Source: Alienimonas californiensis (GTDB taxonomy: Bacteria > Planctomycetota > Planctomycetia > Planctomycetales > Planctomycetaceae). From it: a DNA stretch of 64,000 bases. The position numbers and the translations under genes are program-made. The stretch is from positions 2,224,323-2,288,322 of the forward strand of contig NZ_CP036265.1 of assembly GCF_007743815.1 (NCBI RefSeq), written 5' to 3'. Positions within the stretch are counted from its first letter, which is position 1, and every line of letters begins with the position of its first letter. Positions 56,305 to 61,844 of this stretch are shown here, piece by piece. The notes under the pieces were generated by a model. It ran no database searches, was not told where the DNA came from, and saw nothing but the letters and a program-made list of their open reading frames with translations.

Positions 56305-58344
56305 CTACCGGATGCGTTGGAACAGGCGCTCGAAGTTGGGCAGGAAGGGGACGCCGTGCTCCTGGTAGCTGGGGACGATCCGGCCGTCGGTGCCGACGTG
56401 GTAGAACCAGCGGTTCAGGCCCGGGATGTCGGCGGCCCAGCCGCGGGTGAAGCCGTCGCCCACGCCGTCGCCGTCGTCGTCGGCCTCGAACCAGATCGGG
56501 TCGCCGTGCGGCCAGTAGATGGCGAAGGCGGTGCCCACCAGGGCGTCCCGCGGGACCGCGTGCCGGCGGGGGGCGCCGCGGGTGTTCGACCACAAGCGGC
56601 TGTCCAGGCTGCTGGGCGAGTTGTCGCCGAGCATCAGGAACTCGTCTGCCCCAAGCGTCATTTCGTAGACCCGGGGGTCCACGTCCAACGGCGAGCGGTT
56701 GGCCAGCAGCGGGCCGCCGCGGTAGCGGCGGGCGTAGGCGAGCGGGTCGTCCGCCAGCGAGGCCAGCTCGCTCAGGCGGCCGTCCTCCACGTCTTCGAAG
56801 ACGAGCGGGCGACCACGACCGTCCGTGTCTCGGCGAGACGGGCTGAGGTCGTCCGGGTCCCGGAAGATCCCCCGATAGTACAGGTCCCGGCGGATCGTCA
56901 TCCCCTCGGCCCGGGCGGAGGCGTGCTTGACGGCGAACCCGGCGGGGGTGAAGTCGCGTTCACTCGGCTCCTGCACGGTCATGGCCGTGAAGGGCGGGTA
57001 GGGGACCTGATCGACCGGGCCGGAGCCGTCGGCGGGGAGGAACGCCGTCGGCTCCCCGTCCACCCACAGGGTGAGGGCGCCGTCCACGTTGGCGAAGACC
57101 AGTTCGTACGCCCCGGCGCCGACCACCGCGGTGGGGCCCTCGGCGAGGACCGATTCGGCGGTCGTCGACCGACCGTCGGCGGCCTCCGCCATCGTCTCCT
57201 CCCCGGCCAGCGTGTCGTAGTAGGTCAGCGTCGCCGTGCCGGTCGTCGCATCGATCCGGCAGCGGTAGGTGCGGTCCCCCTCGACCAGTTCCAGCAGTGC
57301 CGCGGCGCCGTCGGACAGGTCCGACAACTCCAGATCGAGGGCCATCTCCAGGTCGCCCACCCAGAAGGCCCCGTCCGGCTGGAGGGTGTCCGGGTTGTAG
57401 GCGCAGTGATCGAGAATCAGCTTGGGCGTGACGTCTTCCACCCGGGCGCCGAGCGCCGCCTGGCGCCACTGCTCCGCGGTGGGGCGGAGGTGGCGGTAGC
57501 GGATCCAGTTCCACTCCTCACCGGCGCCCCCGTTGCCGGCGCCCCCGTTGCCGGCGCCGGGGCTGAGACGCAGGGCGCGGGTCTCCGGCAGGGCGGTCCA
57601 GCCGGTGGCGTCCTCGACCCAGCCGGCGACCGCCCCGGGGCCGGCGCTCTCCCCGCGGTACCGCACCGGGGCGAACCGCTCCGGCACGCCGGCGGCCAGC
57701 AGCTCGGGGGCCGGCCGGGCGTGGTCGTAGACCGGCAAGGTCATCGCTCGCTGTTTGGCCGGCTCCTTCCGCAGCGTCTCCGCGGCGCCGCCGGTCGGGC
57801 CACCCGTGATCCGATACAGATCGCCCTGCCGCAGCGTCAGCGTTTCGCCCGGCAGGCCGACCATCCGTTTGACGTAGTTGGTGGTCGGGTTCTCCGGGAA
57901 CTTGAACACCGTCACGGCCCAGCGTTCCGGCTCGCCCAGCAGGAAGGGCCACTTGTTGACCAGAATCCGGTCCCCCGCGAACGGCGGCAGCGGGGCGAGG
58001 TCCACCGGCCGATTGCAGTTCGGGCACTTCGCCGAGCGGACCAAGGCCGCAGGTTTCGGACCGTCCGGGCTGCCGAAGACCTTCAGATAACCGGCATCGT
58101 CCACCTCCGTGCTGGCGCCGACGGCCCACTCGGTCCCGCACCCCGGGCACTCCACGTCCTTATGCCGGCCGTAGAGCGTGGGCGCCATCGACCCGGTCGG
58201 GATGACGAACGCTTCCGCCTCGAAGGTCTTGAACAGAAAGCAGAACACGAACGCGATCACGATGGACTCCATCGTCTCGCGGGTCCCGTCCTTTTTGGGG
58301 GGCGGGGCGTCGATGGGAGCGGCGTCCGTGTCCGGTCTGGTCAT
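56305..58344 (-). CDS. Giant signal peptidase I with inserted zinc-ribbon-like and beta-sandwich parts (A)
   Basis: A 679-residue S26 signal peptidase, about twice the usual size. An N-terminal membrane helix (ESIVIAFVFCFLFKTFEAEAFVIP) is followed by the nucleophile Ser52 in PTGSMAPTL. A four-cysteine pair, CPGC (66-69) and CPNC (107-110), sits between Ser52 and the general base Lys159 (NYVKRMVGLPGE). RILVNKWPFLLGEPERWAVTVFKFPENP is standard. A roughly 400-residue insert separates the Lys box from GDNSPSSLDSRLW (573 onward). Inside it, around 310-460, a stretch resembling a LamG/DUF1080-like beta-sandwich is seen (RTYRCRIDATTGTATLTYYD, YELVFANVDGALTLWVDGE). It releases exported proteins by cutting their signal peptides. 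A second such gene lies directly upstream. Confidence 0.9.
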   Translation of the reverse strand: MTRPDTDAAPIDAPPPKKDGTRETMESIVIAFVFCFLFKTFEAEAFVIPTGSMAPTLYGRHKDVECPGCGTEWAVGASTEVDDAGYLKVFGSPDGPKPAALVRSAKCPNCNRPVDLAPLPPFAGDRILVNKWPFLLGEPERWAVTVFKFPENPTTNYVKRMVGLPGETLTLRQGDLYRITGGPTGGAAETLRKEPAKQRAMTLPVYDHARPAPELLAAGVPERFAPVRYRGESAGPGAVAGWVEDATGWTALPETRALRLSPGAGNGGAGNGGAGEEWNWIRYRHLRPTAEQWRQAALGARVEDVTPKLILDHCAYNPDTLQPDGAFWVGDLEMALDLELSDLSDGAAALLELVEGDRTYRCRIDATTGTATLTYYDTLAGEETMAEAADGRSTTAESVLAEGPTAVVGAGAYELVFANVDGALTLWVDGEPTAFLPADGSGPVDQVPYPPFTAMTVQEPSERDFTPAGFAVKHASARAEGMTIRRDLYYRGIFRDPDDLSPSRRDTDGRGRPLVFEDVEDGRLSELASLADDPLAYARRYRGGPLLANRSPLDVDPRVYEMTLGADEFLMLGDNSPSSLDSRLWSNTRGAPRRHAVPRDALVGTAFAIYWPHGDPIWFEADDDGDGVGDGFTRGWAADIPGLNRWFYHVGTDGRIVPSYQEHGVPFLPNFERLFQRIR

Positions 58345-58366
58345 GGCTTAGCGCGGGGGAAGGCTC

Positions 58367-58414
58367 TAGAACCGCGACCGTCAGGGAGCCGGCTCCCTGA
58401 CGGTCGCGGTTCTA
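58367..58414 (-). terminator. Perfect 48-bp palindrome between the two signal peptidase genes
   Basis: Bases 58367-58390 are the exact reverse complement of 58391-58414, with no spacer. It lies 20 bases past the stop of the upstream signal peptidase gene and 22 bases before the start of the downstream one, on the minus strand. No T run follows, so it may act as an mRNA-stabilising or expression-balancing hairpin as much as a terminator. Confidence 0.5.
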
Positions 58415-58434
58415 TTCTCGCAGTTACCGAGGGA

Positions 58435-60270
58435 TTAGCGAACGTACCGAATCCGGGCCGGGTCCGGGATGCGGACGGTGGTGGAGGAGTCGCCCCAACT
58501 CAGCGTGCCGGGCTTGCTGGGCAGGTGCACGATGAACGGCTTGCCGACCAGCAGGCGCTCCGGCACGGCGCCGTCGCTCCAGCCGCGGCTGTCCAGGCTG
58601 ACCGGGCTGTTGTCGCCCAGCACGAACAGTTCGCCCTCGCCCAAACGGTAGTCCTCCTCCACCCCGTGCACCGCGCGGCCGCGGGTGTAGTGGACGTCGC
58701 GGTAGAGCATCAGTTCCGTCACCGCGACGGCCCCGCGGCCGCCGACCAGGGCGGGGCTGGCACCCGGCGGAGGGGCGTCTTCGGGTCGCTCGAACAGGAC
58801 CGGGGCGAACGGCTGCACGCCGTCCACCGCGGCGACCGCCTGCCGATCGAACAGGCTGAACTCAAAGCTCACCGGCCCCGCCGCAACCGCGGCCGGCAAC
58901 GCGACCGACCGCAGCGCCGCCCCGATCGGGTGGCCGACGGCGTCCAGTTCGAACAGCGACAGCGTGCCGGTCGGGCGGCGCTCGCGGTCGGCCCGGTCGG
59001 CGACCAGCAGGAAGGTGCGGTGCCCGTCCGTCAGTTGGAGCGCCAGGGCCGCGTCGGCGTCGCGGGAGAGGTCGGCGGAGAGGCTCGCAGCGAAGTCCCG
59101 CACCCGGGCCTCGAACCGCGGGTCGGGGGCGTGGTTGTAGCCGTAGTCGTCCGTGATCGGGGCGAACTGGCTGCGGTCCGCCAGTTCCTGCACCGCGTCT
59201 CGCCAGCGGGGATCGCGGGAGAGCCGCCGTAACCGGCAGGCGTCTGCCCCGCTCAGCACCCCGCGGCAGGAGAGCGTGTTGGTGATCGGGTCGAAGTCGT
59301 AGGCGACCGGCAACCGCGGTTCGTCCCAGGTGAATCGCCGCGGCGGCGGGTCGATCGTCACCGCGGTCTCGTGCGTCCCGCCCGCGGCGAGCACGTGCCG
59401 GTAGGTCAGCCGCCGCCAGCCGCCGCGGGACTCCCCCTCGTCGGCGGGCGCCGCGTCGTCGGCGGCGGGGACGTCGTCGGCGGCGGGGGCGTCGGCGGCG
59501 GGGGGGGCGTCGAACTCCGCCGTGGCGAACCGCACCGTGGGGGCGTCGCCGTCGCGGAGCTCTTCCCGCACCCAGCCATCGCCGCTCCAGCGGGGCTCCG
59601 GGGCCTCGTCGGGGCGGGGGGCGAAGGCGGGATCGTAGACGGGAATCCGCACCGCCCGCTGGGTGACCAGCGGTTTGCGGCACAGTTCGCCGTCCGCCCA
59701 CACGTCCCCGCCGGAGACGCGCACCGCCTCGCCGGGCAGCCCCACGACCCGTTTCACGTACGCCTGCCGGGCGTCCTCCGGGTGACGGAACACGACCACC
59801 TCCCACCGCCGCGGATCGCGCCAGGCGAACGCGTGCTTGAGCACGAGCAATTGGTCGCCCTGGGTGTCCGGGGCGGCGGTGACGTCGATCTCCGGCTGGC
59901 CGCAGTTCGGGCAGTGGGCGAACGTGACCGGCCGCGTTGGCGCCTCGTCGCCCTCGCCGGCGGTCATGCGGCCGGGCAGGCCGGCGACGCCGTCGAAGTT
60001 GATCCCACGGGCGAAGGAGTGCGCGCAGGACGGGCAGACCACCCGCTTGTGATAGCCGAACAGCCCCGGCGCCATCGACCCGCTGCTGATGACGTACCCC
60101 TCCACCAGGAAGGCGTGGGCGACCATCACCGCCACCGCCAGCAGGGCGAGGGCGTCCCCCGCGGTCCGGGCCGTCAACGCCCAGCCGGAGCGCTGCCGTC
60201 GCACGGCAGGTTTAGGGCCCGGCCCGGGCGCGCCGACGCGGGTCGTGGGCGGCGGGGGCGGGGCGCTCAT
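58435..60270 (-). CDS. Giant signal peptidase I with inserted zinc-ribbon-like and beta-sandwich parts (B)
   Basis: A 611-residue paralogue of the neighbouring signal peptidase. Pro-rich cytoplasmic head, helix TAGDALALLAVAVMVAHAFLVEGYVI, nucleophile Ser65 (SSGSMAPGL), then CPSC (79-82) and CPNC (120-123), and the general base Lys173 (AYVKRVVGLPGE). WRDPRRWEVVVFRHPED corresponds to WAVTVFKFPEN in the neighbour. The Lys box and GDNSPVSLDSRGW (552 onward) are separated by a 370-residue insert with a low-complexity Asp/Ala stretch (DAPAADDVPAADDAAPAD) and a beta-rich part around 455-500 (VSFEFSLFDRQAVAAVDGV). Sequence similarity to paralogue A is modest apart from the motifs, so the duplication is old or the two serve different substrates. 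Confidence 0.9.
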   Translation of the reverse strand: MSAPPPPPTTRVGAPGPGPKPAVRRQRSGWALTARTAGDALALLAVAVMVAHAFLVEGYVISSGSMAPGLFGYHKRVVCPSCAHSFARGINFDGVAGLPGRMTAGEGDEAPTRPVTFAHCPNCGQPEIDVTAAPDTQGDQLLVLKHAFAWRDPRRWEVVVFRHPEDARQAYVKRVVGLPGEAVRVSGGDVWADGELCRKPLVTQRAVRIPVYDPAFAPRPDEAPEPRWSGDGWVREELRDGDAPTVRFATAEFDAPPAADAPAADDVPAADDAAPADEGESRGGWRRLTYRHVLAAGGTHETAVTIDPPPRRFTWDEPRLPVAYDFDPITNTLSCRGVLSGADACRLRRLSRDPRWRDAVQELADRSQFAPITDDYGYNHAPDPRFEARVRDFAASLSADLSRDADAALALQLTDGHRTFLLVADRADRERRPTGTLSLFELDAVGHPIGAALRSVALPAAVAAGPVSFEFSLFDRQAVAAVDGVQPFAPVLFERPEDAPPPGASPALVGGRGAVAVTELMLYRDVHYTRGRAVHGVEEDYRLGEGELFVLGDNSPVSLDSRGWSDGAVPERLLVGKPFIVHLPSKPGTLSWGDSSTTVRIPDPARIRYVR

Positions 60271-60360: not shown

Positions 60361-61074
60361 CTATTCGCCCTCGACGGCGGCCTCCGGTTCGACGGCGGGG
60401 GGCGGCTCGACGGCGGAACCCGGATCGGACAGCGTCAGCGGGATCGTGCGGGGCTCCGCGACCGCGTCGCCCTCCGCCGATTCGCCCTCCGCGGGTTCGC
60501 CCTCAACGACTTCGCCGGCGGGGGTTTCGGGCGTCAGGGTAAGGTCGGCGTCGAGGAAGCCGCCGTCGTCGGCGTACCGCACCCGCACCAGGCCGGCGGC
60601 CTTCTCCCCGACGGCGTCGTAGTAATAAACGTCCCAGGGGGTGTCGCTGGCGTAGGTGCGGTCGTCGTTGACCCGCACCGACGTAATCGGGCCGAGCGCC
60701 TCGGTCGCGGCCGGCTCGGCCGCGAGCGCGGCCTGCACGCGGTCGGTGTCCAGTTCGGACGCGATCGCGTCCAGATCGCCGAAGGCGCCGGCGGCCTCCT
60801 CCACGGCGTTCGCCCCCCAGGCGACCGCGAACACGATCCCCCACACGACCGACGCCGTCACCAAACCCAGCGTCGTCCCCAACAGCAGCAGCGCCGCGCC
60901 TTTCCAGGGATTCGGCGGGGCGGGGACGTAGACGACCTGACCCGCCGGCACGACCGGCTGCATCGGCCGGCCCCCCACGGACGCCCGGAGCGAACCGCCG
61001 GACGCCGTCCCCGTCGGACCGTCGTCGTACTCGTCCTCGAAGACGTCGGCGAACGGATCGGCGGGACGGGTCAT
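60361..61074 (-). CDS. Single-span membrane protein, unknown
   Basis: A 237-residue protein. An acidic and polar head of about 55 residues (PFADVFEDEYDDGPTG) leads to one long hydrophobic segment or a tight hairpin at about 59-88 (AALLLLGTTLGLVTASVVWGIVFAVAW). The following domain is soluble, with a short beta-rich core (ITSVRVNDDRTYASDTPWDVYYYDAVGEKAAGLVRVRYAD) that looks like a small cystatin/DUF-type exported domain, and the tail is Glu/Pro/Ala-rich with three EGE repeats. No family recognised. It is 90 bases upstream of the signal peptidase B gene and may share its transcript. Confidence 0.6.
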   Translation of the reverse strand: MTRPADPFADVFEDEYDDGPTGTASGGSLRASVGGRPMQPVVPAGQVVYVPAPPNPWKGAALLLLGTTLGLVTASVVWGIVFAVAWGANAVEEAAGAFGDLDAIASELDTDRVQAALAAEPAATEALGPITSVRVNDDRTYASDTPWDVYYYDAVGEKAAGLVRVRYADDGGFLDADLTLTPETPAGEVVEGEPAEGESAEGDAVAEPRTIPLTLSDPGSAVEPPPAVEPEAAVEGE

Positions 61075-61145: not shown

Positions 61146-61844
61146 CTACTCGTCGGCGTCGGCGTCGGCCGCGGCTTCGAGCGTCGGCAGGTCGAACGAC
61201 ACCGTCGGCGGGGCCGGCGTCGGGGCGGGCGCCGGGGGGACGGAGCCGTCCGCGGCGCCGTGCGGGGCGGGGGCGGCGTACGCCGGGGCCGGCCCGGCGG
61301 CCCGGCCGCAGGCGTCGCGGCAGGCGCCGACCGGCACGGCGGACCACTTGCACACGCAGCGTTCGCCGCACTCGTACTCATGCACGTCCAGCGTATTCAC
61401 GCAGCGAATCCCGCCGCCGCAGCCGCGGCCGTGGTTGCACAGGTTGGCCAGCCAGCCGGCCTTCCGGGCGCCGCAGGCGTGCGGTCCGCAGCCGTCGCAG
61501 CCGGCGGTCGTGCAGCCGTCGGCTCCGCAGCCGCGGCCGTGGCTCTTCTTGCCGCAGAACAGATCGCGAACGCAGTCGAAGGGCGAGGTGGCGATCGGGG
61601 GCACGCAGACCGCCTCCGATTCAATCAGGTAGCATTCCTTCTCGATCGGCTCGGACTCCACCGTCACCCGGCAGGCGTAGCGGGCGGGGCGGCGGCAGGC
61701 GTCGCGGCAGAGGTCGCGGTCGGCGTCGCAGGGCGGGCCAGCGAGCGCCGCCGGGCCGAGGACGGCGGCCAGCAGCGCCGCGGCGCCGGCGGACCACGCC
61801 GCGCGGGACGTCGAACGAAGAGTTTGGAACGGGCGAACGAACAT
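61146..61844 (-). CDS. Secreted cysteine-rich protein
   Basis: A 232-residue exported protein. A signal peptide (WSAGAAALLAAVLGPAALAGPP) is followed by about 150 residues holding about 21 cysteines, many in Cys-Gly patterns: GRGCGADGCTTAGCDGCGPHACG, LCNHGRGCGGGIRCV, ECGERCVCKW, and paired C-x3-C ends (DLCRDAC, ACRDACG). The last 60 residues are Pro/Ala-rich. Cysteine-rich wall and surface proteins are a known planctomycete trait, as their cell wall was described as protein-rich; this protein could be cross-linked by disulfides or bind metal. No enzymatic motif. It lies between the porin gene and a membrane-protein gene on the same strand. Confidence 0.75.
   Translation of the reverse strand: MFVRPFQTLRSTSRAAWSAGAAALLAAVLGPAALAGPPCDADRDLCRDACRRPARYACRVTVESEPIEKECYLIESEAVCVPPIATSPFDCVRDLFCGKKSHGRGCGADGCTTAGCDGCGPHACGARKAGWLANLCNHGRGCGGGIRCVNTLDVHEYECGERCVCKWSAVPVGACRDACGRAAGPAPAYAAPAPHGAADGSVPPAPAPTPAPPTVSFDLPTLEAAADADADE

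Follow-up and report, generated by a model that had tools for sequence, protein, structure and literature searches.

Tandem giant signal peptidases of Alienimonas californiensis with a probable zinc ribbon beside the active site and a predicted jelly-roll insert

Almost universal and usually compact, the type I signal peptidase is a target of antibiotics. In a 64,000-nucleotide stretch of the planctomycete Alienimonas californiensis (assembly GCF_007743815.1, contig NZ_CP036265.1, positions 2,224,323 to 2,288,322 of the forward strand; the whole stretch is called the window here, and coordinates count from its first letter), two adjacent open reading frames (ORFs), A and B, carry the motifs of this enzyme together with four cysteines between the catalytic Ser and Lys and a very long stretch behind the Lys. 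What are these additional parts, and do the two proteins serve as ordinary signal peptidases? Our analysis favors, at a probability of roughly 0.7, the picture of housekeeping LepB-type enzymes that bear a zinc ribbon and a jelly roll and whose tandem copies divide the substrates, the role of the jelly roll being the least certain part.

Both ORFs start with ATG and lie head to tail on the minus strand, B upstream of A with a spacing of 90 base pairs. The original prediction, made from the letters alone, had described two adjacent S26 peptidases of 679 and 611 residues with Ser, Lys and GDN motifs and with cysteines between Ser and Lys, and both the ORFs, at the same coordinates, and their boxes were confirmed. 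The layout that it gave for the Ser-Lys segment and the insert also stood, while its span of about 370-400 residues from Lys to GDN proved slightly narrow, the distances being 414 residues in A and 379 in B. In both proteins the order of parts is a hydrophobic N-terminal helix, the Ser box, the CxxC...CxxC module, the Lys box, the long stretch and the GDN box, as follows.

58435 to 60270, minus strand: B, giant signal peptidase I, 611 residues (ORF; PF10502 92.6 bits, TIGR02227 85.1 bits)
60103 to 60186, minus strand: B, N-terminal helix, residues 29-56, predicted membrane anchor (AlphaFold helix; hydrophobic sequence)
60076 to 60078, minus strand: B, catalytic Ser65 by alignment (invariant in the B-set alignment)
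59872 to 60054, minus strand: B, zinc-ribbon-like four-cysteine module, residues 73-133, CxxC at 79-82 and 120-123 (C79, C82, C120 and C123 invariant in the B-set alignment)
59752 to 59754, minus strand: B, general-base Lys173 by alignment (invariant in the B-set alignment)
58687 to 59664, minus strand: B, predicted concanavalin A-like jelly-roll insert, residues about 203-528 (VIA-align matches to 4ygc and 4gkx)
58585 to 58617, minus strand: B, GDNSPVSLDSR box, residues 552-562 (G552, D553, N554, S558, D560 and R562 invariant in the B-set alignment)
56305 to 58344, minus strand: A, giant signal peptidase I, 679 residues (ORF; PF10502 87.9 bits, TIGR02227 80.8 bits)
58225 to 58290, minus strand: A, N-terminal helix, residues 19-40, predicted membrane anchor (AlphaFold helix; hydrophobic sequence)
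58189 to 58191, minus strand: A, catalytic Ser52 by alignment (invariant in the A-set alignment)
57985 to 58167, minus strand: A, zinc-ribbon-like four-cysteine module, residues 60-120, CxxC at 66-69 and 107-110 (alignments; AlphaFold strands around the knuckles)
57868 to 57870, minus strand: A, general-base Lys159 by alignment (invariant in the A-set alignment)
56875 to 57747, minus strand: A, predicted concanavalin A-like jelly-roll insert, residues about 200-490 (VIA-align matches to 3zr5 and CBM66 4azz)
56596 to 56628, minus strand: A, GDNSPSSLDSR box, residues 573-583 (N575 and S579 invariant, G573, D574, S576, D581 and R583 nearly invariant in the A-set alignment)

Both proteins passed the cut-offs of the Pfam model Peptidase_S26 (PF10502, 22.9 bits) and the NCBIfam model of signal peptidase I (TIGR02227, 47 bits) with the scores given above; these curated libraries label A and B as signal peptidase I, and the long insert is without any family match in them. 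The Ser box reads PTGSMAP in A (S52) and SGSMAP in B (S65), the Lys box of A reads YVKRMVGLPGE (K159), and the catalytic dyads S52/K159 and S65/K173 are invariant in the alignments of the A and B sets, respectively. When A was used in a phmmer search among solved structures, E. coli LepB entries came first. The AlphaFold models have a mean predicted local distance difference test (pLDDT) score of 79.0 for A and 83.2 for B, with predicted template modeling scores of 0.83 and 0.82, and their predicted cores match LepB 3s04 with Z 14.2 (A) and 13.7 (B) at 38% identity over 140-142 aligned residues. Two B copies of relatives (L066, L077), considered as dead enzymes, were cleared of this by the Ser, Lys and GDN boxes visible in the homologue alignment.

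By comparing A and B with E. coli LepB (PDB 3s04, 9nlo and 1b12), we found that the Ser and Lys boxes, the GDN box and the core fold are common to all, whereas in LepB the Ser and Lys stretches are about 24 residues apart (about 76 in A) with no cysteine module, and about 125 residues from Lys to GDN against the 414 of A. LepB has two N-terminal helices, whereas A and B are each predicted to have one; positively charged residues precede it in both proteins, which are predicted to expose the catalytic domain outside. The chlamydial signal peptidase I, CT020, is also unusually large. It has been described as strongly diverged from non-chlamydial enzymes (PMC1403754). A and B themselves share 38% identity over 190 aligned columns on the N-terminal side (A 22-209) and 49% over 49 columns near the GDN box, and judged by their sequences they are diverged paralogues; this 38% identity, along with the cysteine conservation described next, argues that their likeness is not due to chance.

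In an alignment of 74 homologues, consisting of the loci of 35 relatives and the window's two proteins, each of the four cysteine columns is Cys in 71 of the 74 sequences, and the same three sequences lack all four. This conservation in close relatives was the point on which the original prediction had staked its zinc ribbon. Similarly, the four cysteines are the sole columns conserved at 90% or more between G27 and G92 in a 44-row alignment of the module. When module-length Ser-to-Lys segments were scored, the two Cys pairs were present in 223 of 237, the other 14 had none or one stray Cys, and half-lost modules were absent among the 237. For this scoring, ORFs below 340 residues were dropped, and 13 ORFs stayed unscored as their Ser or Lys pattern was not found; L208 and L214 were moved by hand on inspection from Cys-free to module-less, bringing the Cys-free count from 16 to 14, and the sequences are not independent, seven loci of one family, f5 (L221-L226, L228), having been added after the VKOR result given below. 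Four cysteines with altered spacing are retained in L048 and L255.

These cysteines look like the knuckles of a zinc ribbon. The Pfam model Zn_ribbon_4 matches 28 of the 44 module rows and Zn_ribbon_3 matches 20 (E 0.5 or better), with best values in relatives of 1.5e-6 (Zn_ribbon_3) and 2.2e-6 (Zn_ribbon_Brz). Each of the two CxxC knuckles sits in a beta-hairpin in the model of A, where strands 61-65/72-76 and 104-106/113-115 flank them in a block with pLDDT 87-93, joined by a linker with pLDDT 58-71; in B, strands 73-78 and 85-89 flank the first knuckle, and the second hairpin is less clear, with two-residue strands and low confidence for residues 91-110. A C4 zinc ribbon would be expected to have just the hairpin arrangement predicted for A, from which we infer the zinc itself. 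Two CPxC-type knuckles are also the common feature of Zn_ribbon_3, Zn_ribbon_4 and Zn_ribbon_Brz; unlike these families, the module of A and B is embedded in an enzyme, is predicted to be extracytoplasmic and matches the models weakly, below their cut-offs. Taken together, the conservation, the all-or-none loss, the matches of the hidden Markov models (HMMs) in relatives and the modeled hairpins of A support the zinc ribbon of the original prediction, and the insert is, on sequence and model, a probable zinc-binding ribbon beside the active site.

Some relatives carry variants. In place of the plain C4, L147 and L158 show CTEDC..., CQSC...RCPLSGH or CPLTGH: L147 (4848-6533) has a module of six Cys with altered spacing and was counted as four-Cys, and L158 (3-1325), an unscored fragment at a contig edge, has a partial pattern of CQSC and then CPLTGH. 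One giant enzyme that lacks the module between Ser and Lys (L210:1357-2757, genome G054) bears a zinc-ribbon-like CxxC...CxxC at the N-terminal end instead, ahead of the Ser box, where it is predicted to be cytosolic.

The second additional part, between Lys and GDN, is predicted to be a concanavalin A-like jelly roll, not disorder. VIA-align superimposed the modeled insert of B on ERGIC-53 4ygc (Z 14.5, root-mean-square deviation [rmsd] 3.3, 179 aligned residues) and on 4gkx (Z 14.6, rmsd 3.6, 185 aligned), and that of A (model residues 203-488) on galactocerebrosidase 3zr5 (Z 14.1, rmsd 3.9, 178 aligned); CBM66 4azz matched both inserts (Z 13.9 for B; Z 13.2, rmsd 3.3, 158 aligned for A), and Foldseek also matched galectins and GH43 enzymes. 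The jelly roll is common to A, B and concanavalin A-like domains such as ERGIC-53 4ygc and CBM66 4azz (Z 13.2-14.5 over 152-179 residues), with identities of about 4-16%, and differs from these in sitting inside a signal peptidase. Both the A set and the B set, each taken separately, have invariant positions in the insert. The original prediction had suggested a beta-sandwich-like part of LamG or DUF1080 type and had named disorder as the outcome that would speak against a domain; AlphaFold and the structure search gave a folded jelly roll, so that the LamG likeness holds at the level of fold, and DUF1080 was not among the fold or family matches listed. In sequence searches, Laminin_G_3 matched one of 46 members (E 0.029), and DUF1080 was not among the best 25 of 61 families.

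Do A and B act as the ordinary signal peptidases of this organism? The genome, a single 5.48-Mb contig (97.8% complete), was searched with PF10502, with TIGR02227 to E 10 and with the archaeal-type TIGR02228 to E 1, and none of these models detected a type I signal peptidase besides A and B. Because no other such enzyme was detected, A and B are, from these sequence data, probably the housekeeping type I signal peptidases and LepB orthologues. Among sampled relatives, matches to A occur in 38 of 39 (39 of 40 genomes with our own; G023 has none), and TIGR02227 matches occur in 60 of 60 class genomes of at least 97% completeness, our own included; in the whole phylum 286 of 292 genomes, our own included, have matches, a figure that takes in module-less or compact enzymes matched weakly and is not to be read as the number of modules. 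An adjacent same-strand S26 pair, usually a B-A tandem, is present in 61 of 74 genomes, which were chosen because they had hits and include our own; two of the 61 have three giant genes in a row (L071 in G032, L076 in G036).

The neighborhoods of relatives support LepB orthology. Of 98 groups (loci L041-L148) with a flank of 1.3 kb or more, 59 have lptB directly after the last giant S26 gene, and of 89 groups with a flank of 2.3 kb or more, 27 have lepA, the classical neighbor of lepB in E. coli, before the first S26 gene, a likeness to E. coli LepB in some relatives; both genes flank 13 loci, and at least two genomes are counted twice in these numbers (L047/L084, L065/L137). Two lptB representatives exceed the TIGR04406 cut-off and one lepA representative that of TIGR01393; the other lptB genes were assigned by similarity to a cluster with two named members, and lepA by motif. 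The adjacency of lptB also links the signal peptidase to lipopolysaccharide (LPS) export genes. The original prediction had proposed a specialised pair; with A and B the sole type I enzymes detected in the genome and lptB or lepA beside the genes of many relatives, housekeeping LepB orthologues are more likely.

The additional parts seem to have come in sequence. Other lineages of the phylum have large signal peptidases with no cysteine module and 227-299 residues from Lys to GDN; such enzymes (L143, L207-L209, L211 and L213 among them) share the S26 boxes and a homologous, shorter insert after the Lys. By hhalign, with 8 of 10 prepared inserts used, the inserts of eight module-less enzymes are homologous to those of 12 A-type enzymes (probability 99.6), and the A and B inserts to each other (99.9). 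The lectin-like domain therefore probably predates the ribbon. From these sequences the probable order is the jelly-roll insert, then the cysteine module, then the A/B duplication and then several en bloc losses of the cysteines. In a tree of 175 rows, from which the module columns were left out, B falls within a 55-row group (Shimodaira-Hasegawa-like approximate likelihood ratio 99) that spans several families of the class, and the Cys state changes between four-Cys and Cys-free at least four times, with well-supported branches alone forcing one change. The order is probable rather than shown, because the tree was built quickly and rooted at its midpoint, its deep forks are open and some of its branches long, and because absence of the module could partly be loss.

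The module is carried by loci titled Planctomycetia, Planctomycetaceae, Pirellulales or Phycisphaerae, and by none of 11 loci of other taxa or unclassified bacteria (L149-L157, L159, L160), which form the weak end of the matches listed. Its restriction to planctomycetes, as originally proposed, is supported among the matches listed, which include those of a scan of genome contigs with one peptide pattern. Two loci titled Candidatus Kuenenia (L088, L099) group with Planctomycetia-type A enzymes in the tree, and one titled Bacteroidales (L125) groups with Gemmataceae-type enzymes; these contigs are probably mislabelled or misbinned, and with such doubtful titles we make no claim for Brocadiia or Bacteroidota.

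According to the above-described analysis, a single N-terminal helix would anchor each of A and B in the inner membrane, the Ser-Lys dyad would face outward, and signal peptides would be cleaved by the normal S26 mechanism, as the motifs and the predicted fold suggest. The putative C4 zinc ribbon, inserted about seven residues after the catalytic Ser and before the GDxxLV strand, most likely binds one Zn(II) structurally and may stiffen the rim of the substrate cleft on the membrane side, or extend it. The usual second domain between Lys and GDN box appears to be replaced or enlarged by the concanavalin A-like jelly roll, which, in the weakest step of the scheme, probably serves to dock or recognise substrates, partners or envelope glycans. 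The enzyme was duplicated, probably early in the class, and the B-A tandem was kept, presumably with the copies dividing the substrates.

Several observations weigh against this picture. The window proteins match zinc-ribbon models weakly, below curated cut-offs (best E 0.017 at full length, 0.011 for the A module alone), and zinc ribbons are, to our knowledge, unusual outside the cytosol. The cysteines are missing from A copies of family f5, from the single copy found in G027 and from several Phycisphaerae-like enzymes; the Cys-free A copies of f5 retain the scaffold GYEYxVGAS, and zinc ribbons elsewhere also keep their scaffold after metal loss. A predicted secreted, Cys-rich ORF of 232 residues lies nearby (61146-61844, minus strand, with a signal-peptide-like start, unmatched in Pfam and NCBIfam, and the next gene upstream of 60361-61074), so that disulfides may form in this compartment. 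The predicted jelly-roll fold by itself shows no sugar binding. A compact one-piece signal peptidase is also present in at least 11 of the 60 class genomes (among the matches listed, in G037, G228, G250, G283, G287, G309, G319, G341, G342, G343 and G345), so the giants are not the sole enzyme everywhere; moreover, neither lepA nor lptB adjoins the window genes, and 39 of the 98 groups of relatives have no lptB neighbor.

Alternatively, disulfides between the four cysteines could switch signal-peptide cleavage according to redox state, a comparable idea being attached to the plastid enzyme Plsp1 and its disulfide. The position of the module beside the catalytic Ser and its predicted location outside the cytoplasm, in a place where oxidation of cysteines is possible, speak for this, and all-or-none loss also fits paired disulfides; the CPxCG/CPNC knuckles and the HMM matches, on the other hand, are those of zinc ribbons. 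Searches of this genome found no DsbB and no VKOR, and among 40 class genomes, our own included, DsbB was found in 3, VKOR in 9 and neither in 29; in every one of these 29, the loci retrieved include at least one four-Cys copy. Family f5 gives this idea its best case: A is Cys-free in G028, G037, G279, G283, G287, G319 and G341, four of the five searched among these genomes have a VKOR match (G028, G279, G283 and G287), and G250 and G297, with no VKOR match, keep the cysteines in A. Disulfide machinery as the explanation of cysteine loss fits f5 only in part, because the B copies found beside the Cys-free A copies keep their cysteines, G037 has no VKOR match, and the VKOR-positive G081, G115, G130, G191 and G333 keep four Cys in both A and B. 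A redox switch is therefore less likely than the zinc ribbon, and unlikely altogether; none of the evidence obtained supports the redox- or substrate-gated enzymes, tuned to the envelope, of the original prediction.

About as doubtful is the proposal that A and B are specialised for an export subset, e.g., glycan- or LPS-related proteins, with a lectin-like domain that reads glycans and an lptB linkage that reflects shared function. The likeness of the insert to ERGIC-53, galectins and CBM66, the lptB adjacency in 59 of 98 groups and the retention of two diverged copies speak for it, but a housekeeping role is needed in a genome with no other type I signal peptidase detected, lepA adjoins 27 of 89 groups, fold likeness does not show sugar binding, and lptB is not beside the window genes. 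Still more improbable is that module and insert are lineage-specific embellishments with no function: the loss of the four Cys in 14 of 237 segments and the module-less enzymes of other planctomycete lineages speak for this, whereas the retention of the cysteines in 223 of 237 while the rest of the module diverges, the insert positions invariant within the A and B sets and the folded models speak against it. Returning to the housekeeping enzymes with ribbon and jelly roll, a bolder version, in which general export is set by an extracytoplasmic zinc ribbon on the signal peptidase, steered by the lectin domain and shared out between A and B, seems to us a long shot. If true, how exported proteins mature would be coupled to the state of the envelope in metal, redox or glycan terms; we know of no such control layer for any bacterial signal peptidase.

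Each component of A and B is known, and it is their combination in one signal peptidase that appears to be new; in the open-access literature searched (subscription papers fell mostly outside this scope), no zinc ribbon or lectin-like domain was described in a planctomycete signal peptidase. Across many members of the phylum, a core enzyme that is otherwise compact appears to have been remodelled by two additional domains, of which the probable zinc ribbon adjoins the catalytic serine and is predicted to be extracytoplasmic. The natural Cys-free copies, which in one family stand beside a Cys-containing paralogue in the same genome, offer a comparison for the role of the ribbon, and the enzymes would give direct access to the study of protein export in the peculiar envelope of planctomycetes.

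The window's own neighbors, with matches to a porin, a glycosyltransferase, an acyltransferase and a secretin, were considered as a clue to function and set aside, none being recognised as recurring beside the genes of relatives. Finally, the position seven residues before the catalytic Ser (residue 45 in A, 58 in B) is Ala or Gly and not the Pro that is linked at this position to arylomycin resistance in E. coli.

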